Origin: Thermoplasmata archaeon
GTDB taxonomy: Archaea > Thermoplasmatota > E2 > UBA202 > JdFR-43
Assembly: GCA_021161135.1 (NCBI GenBank)
Contig: JAGHBD010000093.1
Span: 1-13,349 of the forward strand
Direction of reading: 5' to 3'
DNA: 13,349 bases
The notes below the pieces were generated by a model. It was not told the DNA's origin and did not search any database. It saw only the letters and a program-made list of their open reading frames with translations. The position numbers were made by a program, and so were the translations under genes. Below are positions 5,630 through 8,355 of the stretch, in pieces; positions within the stretch are counted from its first letter, which is position 1, and every line of letters starts with the position of its first letter.

Positions 5630-7114
5630 ATGGAAAGACAGGGCTACATTGCCTTCATTATTGTTACCCTCATCATTTTTTCAGGCATTATAATTTACAA
5701 TGAGAGCAGGAAGAAGGGAGGAGTGGCAGAGGCAAAAGAGATATCCATACACGACTATGATCCTACCACTGATATAGAAGTAATCTTCAGAATAGACAGA
5801 ATAAGAAAGATAGAGTTCGAAAGAGGAGAGGCGCCAATGCTTGCCATGGAGATAAGCATCGATGGAAATGCTTTTGAAATAGGATACTGGAAAGGCATCG
5901 ATGTATATCCGAGATGGAGACACATACAGGATGTAAATGATAGCAAGGAAAATGTGAGCATAGAAATAAAACTCTTCGAAATTGTGGGTAATGAAAAAAT
6001 ACCATGTGACATTTCCCCAGCAACTGGAAAATATAGAGGATACGTGCTTAAATTAACCTATTCTCTCAAAAATGGTTCATGGCATGGCGATGATTCGCTG
6101 GGCGATGAAAGCGGATATGGACATGCAGGGGGACATGAAGATGGAAATTATGATGAAAACGATTACGAAATATGGTTTGACATATATCAAACAGATGCAG
6201 ATGGAGATCGCCTCACATGGTATGAGGAAGTTTTTGTATATGGAACGGATCCAAATATAAGTGATGCAGGCATTGATTATGATGGAGATGGTGTGCCAAT
6301 AGAATGGGAAGATAAATGGGGTTATGATCCATTCAAACCAGAAAATCACTCTGAAATTGATGTGGATGGAGATGGAATACAGAATATTGAGGAATATATG
6401 ATGGCTGAATGGCATGCTGACCCTTTCCGCCCAGATATATTCGTTGAGGTAGATTTCATGAAAAATAGATTCTTCGGCCACACTACTTTCCCAGAATATT
6501 CAAAGGAAAAAGTCATCTCCGCATTCACAAAACACAATTTTATGCTCCACATCGACGACGGCCTCATGGGCGGAGGCGGCGAAATCCTGCCGTATGAAAA
6601 ATTCTATACTCCTGAAAAGCTCTCGTATTATTACAAGAAATATTTCTTACACGACGGTCAAAATGAATGGAGGCGGGGAATATTCAGATATTGTGTATTC
6701 GTTCATTACACATTTCCGTCAAAGAAAAATGTGGCAGGCTATTCCTACTGGCCAACCAATGAGGATATTTTCAACTGTTTTGTTATTGGCACCAGAGTAA
6801 TAAAAAATTATCGCTTTACCCCTCTTGCCAGAGAAACTGCAATGGCGAGCCTTTTCATGCATGAACTCGGACATACCCTCGGTATTTTCTGGCATACATA
6901 TCATGGTTGCGATAATATTACATCCACACGTCCATGGTATGATGGATGGGATAAATACGCCAACTATAAAAGCTGTATGAACTATCGCTATGCTTGGAGT
7001 CTCATTGATTATTCAGATGGAAGCCACGGGCAAGGAGATTTCAACGACTGGGCTACTATAGACCCAGCATTCTTTGAAAAGAAATTCTTTGCAGAGCCGC
7101 CAATAATACTTTAA
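5630..7114 (+). CDS. Membrane-anchored, metzincin-like zinc metalloprotease with Ca-binding repeats
   Basis: This 494-residue protein starts with an uncleaved-looking membrane anchor (residues about 6-23), so the rest should be extracellular. A beta-rich segment (about 37-148) and a Gly/Asp/His-rich stretch (150-178) precede three acidic DxDGD-type loops (D189-D193, D216-D220, D244-D248), resembling thrombospondin type 3 or dockerin calcium sites. The catalytic part follows: HELGH (411-415) with Glu412 as expected general base, Gly418, and a C-terminal SCMNY (448-452) resembling the metzincin Met-turn, then DYSDG...DFNDW. The third zinc ligand is shifted: the canonical HExxHxxGxxH position is Trp421 and His422 follows. 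It diverges from the Ig-like secreted gene, which has a similar calcium motif. Protease function is well supported by motifs; substrate is unknown. Confidence 0.8.
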   Translation: MERQGYIAFIIVTLIIFSGIIIYNESRKKGGVAEAKEISIHDYDPTTDIEVIFRIDRIRKIEFERGEAPMLAMEISIDGNAFEIGYWKGIDVYPRWRHIQDVNDSKENVSIEIKLFEIVGNEKIPCDISPATGKYRGYVLKLTYSLKNGSWHGDDSLGDESGYGHAGGHEDGNYDENDYEIWFDIYQTDADGDRLTWYEEVFVYGTDPNISDAGIDYDGDGVPIEWEDKWGYDPFKPENHSEIDVDGDGIQNIEEYMMAEWHADPFRPDIFVEVDFMKNRFFGHTTFPEYSKEKVISAFTKHNFMLHIDDGLMGGGGEILPYEKFYTPEKLSYYYKKYFLHDGQNEWRRGIFRYCVFVHYTFPSKKNVAGYSYWPTNEDIFNCFVIGTRVIKNYRFTPLARETAMASLFMHELGHTLGIFWHTYHGCDNITSTRPWYDGWDKYANYKSCMNYRYAWSLIDYSDGSHGQGDFNDWATIDPAFFEKKFFAEPPIIL

Positions 7115-7128
7115 TCTGCCACAAAAGA

Positions 7129-7136
7129 TTATAATA
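7129..7136 (+). promoter_or_regulatory. TATA box of the C/D box sRNA
   Basis: TTATAATA centred at 7132-7133 predicts transcription start near 7158, which coincides with the 5' terminal-stem strand of the sRNA (7156-7159). It follows the metalloprotease stop by 14 nt. Confidence 0.55.
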
Positions 7137-7155
7137 TCCTTCCCACATCATTTTA

Positions 7156-7213
7156 TTGGATGATGAAGCTTGCTAGGGCTGATTTGATGATGAATAGCAA
7201 GCCTTCTGACCAA
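7156..7213 (+). ncRNA. Archaeal box C/D guide sRNA with two 12-nt guides
   Basis: All four boxes are perfect and in order: C box ATGATGA (7160-7166), 12-nt D' guide (7167-7178), D' box CTGA (7179-7182), 4-nt spacer, C' box ATGATGA (7187-7193), 12-nt D guide (7194-7205), D box CTGA (7206-7209). TTGG (7156-7159) pairs with CCAA (7210-7213) as the terminal stem. The 12/4/12 symmetry is the hallmark of archaeal sRNAs, which bind L7Ae, Nop5 and fibrillarin to direct 2'-O-methylation. By the D+5 rule the D' guide (AGCTTGCTAGGG) would target A in CCCUAGCAAGCU, and the D guide (ATAGCAAGCCTT) the C in AAGGCUUGCUAU. I cannot place these targets in rRNA or tRNA without the host sequences. The gene has its own TATA box. 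Confidence 0.9.
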
Positions 7214-7227: not shown

Positions 7228-7262
7228 TCGAAAGAGATAAATTTCTCATGCAATTTTTTGAA

Positions 7263-7320
7263 TGCCTCCGCCTGCGGAGAGGTGAGGAGCAGTGATTCAC
7301 CTTGACGGGGCGGAGGTACA
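7263..7320 (+). ncRNA. Candidate structured RNA, possibly a single-hairpin H/ACA guide RNA
   Basis: This is a GC island (36 of 54 bases in 7264-7317 are G or C) in AT-rich noncoding DNA. The lower stem pairs CCTCCGCC (7265-7272) with GGCGGAGG (7309-7316), plus a G-T pair. The upper stem pairs GAGGTGA (7279-7285) with TCACCTT (7297-7303), with an 11-nt apical loop. Between them is an internal loop of 6 nt (TGCGGA) and 5 nt (GACGG). ACA (7318-7320) follows the lower stem directly, 14 nt past the upper stem, as in archaeal H/ACA pseudouridylation guides. Against this, the apical loop is not a clear kink-loop, though it contains GGA and TGA. It could instead be a structured leader of the YkgJ gene: GCGGAG occurs twice (7274-7279, 7310-7315), so CTCCGC could pair with either. 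Confidence 0.45.
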
Positions 7321-7326
7321 GTAAAA

Positions 7327-8263: not shown

Positions 8264-8347
8264 GCGGGGATGGCCCAGCCTGGTACGGCGCAGGATTGCT
8301 AATCCTGTGGGCGAATGCCCGCGCGAGTTCAAATCTCGCTCCCCGCG
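8264..8347 (+). tRNA. tRNA-Ser (anticodon GCU)
   Basis: The acceptor stem pairs GCGGGGA (8264-8270) with TCCCCGC (8340-8346), and the discriminator is G8347. The anticodon stem CAGGA/TCCTG (8291-8295, 8303-8307) encloses TTGCTAA with anticodon GCT at 8298-8300. A long variable arm (GGGC/GCCC, 8309-8320) marks a class II tRNA, and the T arm is GCGAG-TTCAAAT-CTCGC (8323-8339). It decodes AGC and AGU. No intron is present and CCA is not encoded. Confidence 0.97.
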
Positions 8348-8355
8348 CTATCCCC

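Follow-up and report, generated by a model that had tools for sequence, protein, structure and literature searches.

A putative box C/D guide sRNA gene beside a putative H/ACA guide sRNA gene in a Thermoplasmata archaeon, with closely spaced predicted targets in 23S rRNA

Two putative guide RNA genes in a short intergenic region

The window analyzed here is a 13,349-nt stretch of DNA from a Thermoplasmata archaeon, corresponding to contig C108 of a 1.35-Mb genome assembly (G000; 175 contigs, 87% complete). The elongation factor EF-2 of this genome shares 97% identity (best segment) with those of Thermoplasmatales archaeon JdFR-43 and Candidatus Thermoplasmatota isolate S5B3_HD70, the closest pair among the matches listed, which comprise named genomes only and may lack very near records. 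Between an upstream open reading frame ending at position 7114 and a CxxCxxCC-domain gene starting from 7360, we noted two features on the forward strand, a box C/D guide sRNA gene and a putative H/ACA guide sRNA gene (Table 1). The upstream frame (5630–7114) appears by eye to be zincin-like, with a HELGH motif and no Pfam match, and apparently belongs to a multi-copy family, its DNA also being matched on contigs C58, C95, C118, C140, and C158 of the same assembly.

Table 1. Coordinates of the guide RNA features in the window and the evidence for each.
Feature	Position (nt)	Strand	Evidence and remarks
AT-rich TATA-like stretch ATTATAATAT	7128–7137	+	upstream of C/D sRNA; read directly
Box C/D guide sRNA gene	7156–7213	+	core 7160–7209; boxes, Rfam similarity, conservation
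Terminal stem, TTGG with CCAA, four pairs	7156–7159/7210–7213	+	read directly
Box C, ATGATGA	7160–7166	+	invariant in 5/5 copies
D′ guide, AGCTTGCTAGGG (= AGCUUGCUAGGG)	7167–7178	+	12 nt, directly upstream of box D′
Box D′, CTGA	7179–7182	+	invariant in 5/5 copies
Spacer, TTTG	7183–7186	+	read directly
Box C′, ATGATGA	7187–7193	+	invariant in 5/5 copies
D guide, ATAGCAAGCCTT (= AUAGCAAGCCUU)	7194–7205	+	12 nt; predicted target 23S C2526 (G003 numbering)
Box D, CTGA	7206–7209	+	invariant in 5/5 copies
Putative H/ACA guide sRNA	7264–7320 (about 7262–7322)	+	fold, covariation, homologs; K-loop and ACA by eye
H/ACA lower stem, nine pairs	7264–7272/7309–7317	+	fold, covariation
H/ACA 5′ guide, UGCGGA	7273–7278	+	pairs with 23S 2548–2553
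H/ACA upper stem, seven pairs	7279–7285/7297–7303	+	fold, covariation
H/ACA K-loop with G-A pairs	7286–7296	+	by eye
H/ACA 3′ guide, GACGG	7304–7308	+	pairs with 23S 2541–2545
ACA box	7318–7320	+	by eye; 14 nt from upper-stem closing pair

A preliminary description of this locus had proposed the C/D sRNA from its boxes, and on direct reading the positions of boxes C, D′, C′, and D within 7160–7209 and their 12/4/12 spacing were exact. Allowing up to three mismatches, the fixed-spacing C/D pattern occurs at one place in the window, there with no mismatch, and in none of 200 dinucleotide-preserving shuffles of the window. The feature displays the RUGAUGA boxes, the CUGA boxes, and the two 12-nt guides of its class, guides in archaeal C/D sRNAs being given as ~8–12 nt in the available text of PMC2584109. 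The Rfam family snoPyro_CD (RF00095) matched positions 7157–7212 at 35.7 bits (E 2e-4). This falls short of the family's gathering score of 45, which is a cut-off of single families and not a defining feature of the C/D class; the remaining archaeal C/D families gave weaker matches, all under their cut-offs. The genome also encodes fibrillarin (E 7.7e-77) and Nop5 (E 1.2e-49).

Two further elements of the preliminary description stood only in part. The terminal stem is present in G000 but, by eye, is not formed in the other four copies of the RNA, and we have therefore rejected it as a conserved feature. Likewise, an AT-rich stretch does lie at a plausible distance for the TATA box reported there, but a crude TATA score against TTTATATA, listing the best two places, did not single out this stretch, either in the window or in G002. 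In G001, G010, and G012, a 6-of-8 match to TTTATATA begins 28 or 29 nt before box C, although in G001 and G010 other places match just as well. A promoter at 7128–7137 is plausible.

The H/ACA sRNA downstream was overlooked in the preliminary description. The region 7255–7325 folds with a z-score of −5.89, none of 200 shuffles folding as well, and Rfam gave no match to 7264–7320 at E ≤ 5. The two stems around a pocket, the K-loop, and the ANA-box distance of the class are all present (layout by eye), the layout rules in the available text of PMC4652768 placing the ANA box 14–15 nt from the pocket-closing pair. In an alignment of eight genomes (G000 to G003, G005, G011, G015, and G036), 99.2% of stem cells are paired, both partners have changed in 7 of the 16 pairs (a count equaled by 1 of 500 shuffles), and the covariation score was reached by none of 500 shuffles. 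When the stem partner was slid by 1–3 columns, pairing fell to 41–48%. Four of five pairing measures thus lie above the shuffles (0 or 1 of 500 as high), while the fifth, further pair types, does not (498 of 500 as high), and the pocket-closing pair is broken in G011.

When a covariance model built from these eight genomes was run on 80 class genomes, 23 gave a match at E ≤ 0.001, including the eight that went into the model. Matches in G025 and G037 and a second one in G028 (E 0.25–0.98) were dropped, and a G028 match at E 9.2e-6 was left out of alignment A3. We also noted that G033, a relative within the class, has two copies of the H/ACA RNA on different contigs (loci L209 and L218), identical over a 61-base core.

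Conservation and linkage of the two genes

The strict C/D pattern occurs at 7 places in 6 of 41 genomes, G000 counted. Five of these genomes carry the same C/D RNA, namely G000, G001, and G002 of one genus, and G010 and G012 of the same family, and the remaining two places, one in G023 and one more in G012, hold C/D RNAs distinct from it. By eye, the G023 RNA (L001 1501–1548, minus strand) lies inside an apparent intron-bearing tRNA gene, and may be likened to the tRNA-Trp intron guides in the available texts of PMC2584109 and PMC7994747. The second G012 RNA (L007 1501–1548) has a D guide that pairs with 23S 2589–2599 of G003 through nine Watson-Crick pairs, one G-U, and one further pair. A pattern of box C′, D guide, and box D, with up to three mismatches, was found in 7 of the 41 genomes, at zero mismatches in the five copies; the G016 and G034 matches, with three mismatches each, were taken as chance. 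Besides the four invariant boxes, 11 of the 12 letters of the D guide are identical among the five copies, the last base differing, and the D′ guide varies.

A sequence model of the five copies was scored on 80 class genomes with stricter filters. Its own five members, i.e., 5 of the 17 family genomes, scored 63.5–73.1 bits, the next best genome was G004 (20.7 bits), and outside the family the 63 remaining class genomes stayed at or below 18.9 bits. These lower matches are mostly partial and were taken as chance. The restriction of the high scores to five family genomes fits the suggestion in the preliminary description that such genes are sequence-specific to each lineage. Counting against the guide RNA reading, no close copy was found in the other 12 of the 17 family genomes, seven of these 12 being at least 91% complete.

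The DNA surrounding the C/D gene in G000 differs from that in the other four genomes. G000 and G002 share 51 identical bases across the C/D core, and except for the H/ACA stretch their 1.5-kb flanks gave no alignment at E 1e-3. Over the loci (up to 3 kb) outside the C/D-to-H/ACA stretch, the same threshold of E 1e-3 likewise yielded no alignment of G000 to G001, G002, or G012, and its sole alignment with G010 is 63 bases long. The preliminary description had named loss of the boxes amid conserved flanks as evidence against a guide RNA; we found the reverse, with the boxes and D guide kept and the G000 flanks unshared. Considering the box architecture and spacing, the Rfam similarity, this flank-independent conservation, and the fibrillarin and Nop5 genes of the host, the feature at 7156–7213 is in all likelihood a genuine and ordinary archaeal C/D guide sRNA, as first proposed.

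In three genomes of the genus, no more than 600 nt separate the C/D gene from the H/ACA gene. Counting from box D to where the H/ACA model match begins, the distance is 52 nt in G000 (48 nt when counted from 7213) and 42 nt in G001; the gap in G002 is 566 nt and contains an open frame of 153 codons on the opposite strand. The G000 and G001 gene pairs align over 166 columns with 77.7% identity and unshared flanks, whereas the G001 and G002 loci are syntenic (87–88% identity), and the gene pair of G000 thus occupies another genomic position. We accordingly rejected a common location for the G000 pair, given that its alignment to G001 is limited to these 166 columns. In G010 and G012, the C/D RNA was found but no H/ACA match; conversely, G005, G011, and G015 have the H/ACA RNA but no close copy of the C/D RNA. 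The contig of G003 ends 60 nt upstream of its H/ACA gene, too close to judge a C/D neighbor. Linkage of both guide types with neighboring predicted targets is thus seen in one genus only. By eye, the CxxCxxCC gene of G002 is preceded by a tRNA-like sequence instead of guide RNAs (L222).

Predicted targets and alternative readings

Neither 16S nor 23S genes were found in the G000 assembly, and the other four genomes that carry the C/D RNA (G001, G002, G010, and G012) likewise yielded no 23S gene. The rRNAs of G003, from the same genus, were therefore used as the target reference. The G000 D guide pairs with 23S 2522–2532 through 10 contiguous Watson-Crick pairs and one G-U, and the G010 guide through 11 Watson-Crick pairs. 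The fifth D-guide base lies opposite C2526, corresponding to E. coli position 2491 by pairwise alignment, in a region which we take to be helix 89. Among shuffled D guides, 17 of 5000 (G000) and 8 of 5000 (G010) scored as well, a significance tempered by the fact that the D guide written backwards likewise reaches the same score of 25 somewhere in the rRNAs. The pairing core, AGGCUUGCUA, is present in 12 of the 13 readable 23S rRNAs, G003 included, and differs in G024 (the check drew on 16 rRNA loci, with no row for G027 and with G011 and G004 unreadable there). We thus predict that the D guide directs methylation at 23S C2526, giving one of the two C/D guides a credible 23S target where the preliminary description had named none.

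For the D′ guide, the best rRNA place is 16S 416–427 (score 21), with 23S 2421–2432 scoring 18 for the G000 guide and 23 for the G012 guide, and tRNA-Ala(UGC) scoring 19–20. No significant D′ target was found in rRNA, as 2165 of 5000 shuffles equaled the G000 guide and 457 of 5000 the G012 guide, and none of the candidates in 16S, 23S, and tRNAs stood convincingly above shuffles where these were run. A main role of the D guide in modifying a tRNA, such as tRNA-Ser(GCT) (encoded at 8264–8348 in the window) at its anticodon loop, is very improbable. By eye, the guide pairs with this loop at 9 of 12 positions, but the score is 18 compared to 25 for 23S, and one mismatch falls on the very nucleotide that would be methylated (the tRNA scan covered 59 aragorn matches from the retrieved loci, some repeated by overlap).

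At U2546 of the G003 23S, the 11-nt pocket of the H/ACA sRNA is fully paired (11 of 11), whereas no other uridine in 16S and 23S exceeds 8 of 11. Among 2000 shuffled guide sets, 14 have an 11/11 site and 3 also equal its Watson-Crick count. G003 carries both the H/ACA RNA and its 23S, and here all 11 pairs are Watson-Crick. By pairwise alignment, U2546 corresponds to E. coli U2511, and it lies 20 nt from the predicted C/D target, C2526. In G011, the guide is UGCAGA and its own 23S reads UCUGCA, compared to UGCGGA and UCCGCA in G003, which at the sequence level is a compensatory guide-target change. On the opposing side, the target change of G011 is also present in the 23S of G004, for which the covariance model search gave no H/ACA match. 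Most homologs in family f4 retain the 3′ guide, yet in G022, G028, G030, G033, G038, and G076 the 5′ guide, judged by eye, forms at most about three pairs with the genome's own target; support for the U2546 target therefore comes only from within the window's own family. In family f10 (G036, G041, and G043), no match was found for 23S. With its covarying hairpin, guide-target complementarity, and one compensatory change, the H/ACA sRNA most likely directs pseudouridine formation at 23S U2546.

The D and D′ guides are mutually complementary over 8 nt in G000, a run reached by 94 of 200,000 shuffled guide pairs. The two 23S segments that they would hold, 2422–2432 and 2523–2532, are themselves partly complementary, with 10 of 15 compared positions pairing in the best register (blocks of two, six, and two), and could mispair. 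Double-guide chaperones have been proposed in PMC4644070 and PMC7994747, going by their available text, and the C/D sRNA could accordingly act mainly as an rRNA folding chaperone, with methylation secondary. We regard this as unlikely, since the pairing of the G000 D′ guide with rRNA does not reach significance, the longest perfect guide-guide run is shorter in G012 (6 nt) and G010 (5 nt), and the complementarity favors a hairpin in the free RNA, which could hinder target binding. That hairpin, at −14.8 kcal/mol, would itself be the functional element if the RNA were an attenuator or regulatory RNA with incidental boxes. This we reject as exceedingly improbable: the fold is unremarkable (z −1.56, 15 of 200 shuffles folding as well), the boxes are not given by chance, being absent from all 200 shuffled windows, and they are invariant in every copy though the D′ guide varies. 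Quite unlikely, too, is a broader proposal in which the C/D and H/ACA genes of this genus travel together as a mobile cassette, modify 23S 20 nt apart in the peptidyl-transferase region, and, through the C/D guides, prevent mispairing of the two 23S segments during assembly.

Proposed mode of action and relation to known guide RNAs

We are highly confident that the window of this Thermoplasmata archaeon carries a canonical C/D sRNA with 23S C2526 as its predicted target, together with an H/ACA sRNA that most likely targets U2546. We infer that both genes are transcribed, that their RNAs assemble into RNPs, and that both modifications are made. Following established knowledge of these RNPs, L7Ae would bind the C/D and C′/D′ kink-turns, after which Nop5 and fibrillarin would join the L7Ae-bound RNA. 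Pairing of the D guide with 23S would then allow fibrillarin to 2′-O-methylate C2526, the nucleotide opposite the fifth guide position, and the D′ guide may touch the 23S near A2425 (E. coli 2388), holding the rRNA, not methylating it. The H/ACA sRNA would in turn lead Cbf5 to make pseudouridine at U2546, 20 nt from the methylation target.

The C/D sRNA is similar to known archaeal C/D sRNAs (snoPyro_CD, RF00095; the sR families) in its two C/D box pairs, its 12-nt guides upstream of D and D′, its size (~58 nt), its intergenic location, and its predicted 23S target. It differs from snoPyro_CD in scoring below the gathering score and having guides unlike the Pyrococcus consensus, and from both in the 8-nt complementarity of its two guides. 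The H/ACA sRNA resembles the '10/5/9' type in the available text of PMC4652768, with a nine-pair lower stem, a 5-nt 3′ guide, 14 nt to the ACA box, and ten stacked layers to the K-loop G-A pairs (by eye); a U2546 (E. coli U2511) target is not named in that text. Unlike this type, the window RNA is a single hairpin that lacks an Rfam match at E ≤ 5.

Pseudouridine 2880 of yeast 25S rRNA, presumably assigned to the H/ACA RNA snR34, is the same nucleotide as the one predicted here (E. coli 2511). In the available text of PMC11121408, yeast and E. coli positions differ by a constant offset of 369 (2826/2457, 2870/2501, and 2921/2552), and 2880 is a pseudouridine; the text points to snR34 by elimination, since of the three RNAs deleted no other is of the H/ACA type. 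We claim no homology between the yeast and window RNAs. In Nanoarchaeum equitans, the tRNA-sRNA dicistronic genes in the available text of PMC3491384 likewise have a guide gene adjoining another stable RNA gene, whereas here a C/D gene adjoins an H/ACA gene and the predicted targets lie 20 nt apart in 23S.

Judged by titles and the beginnings of abstracts, none of the papers listed in our literature searches describes a C/D-H/ACA tandem with neighboring targets or mutually complementary C/D guides, and among those listed for Thermoplasma none is, by title, devoted to the guide RNAs of the class. The present analysis adds two guide RNAs with predicted targets for the class Thermoplasmata, both of known kinds. 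The more informative result is the H/ACA sRNA beside the C/D gene and the closeness of their predicted targets. Given that the predicted H/ACA site coincides with a yeast pseudouridine near the peptidyl-transferase center, whether this modification is shared or convergent becomes testable.
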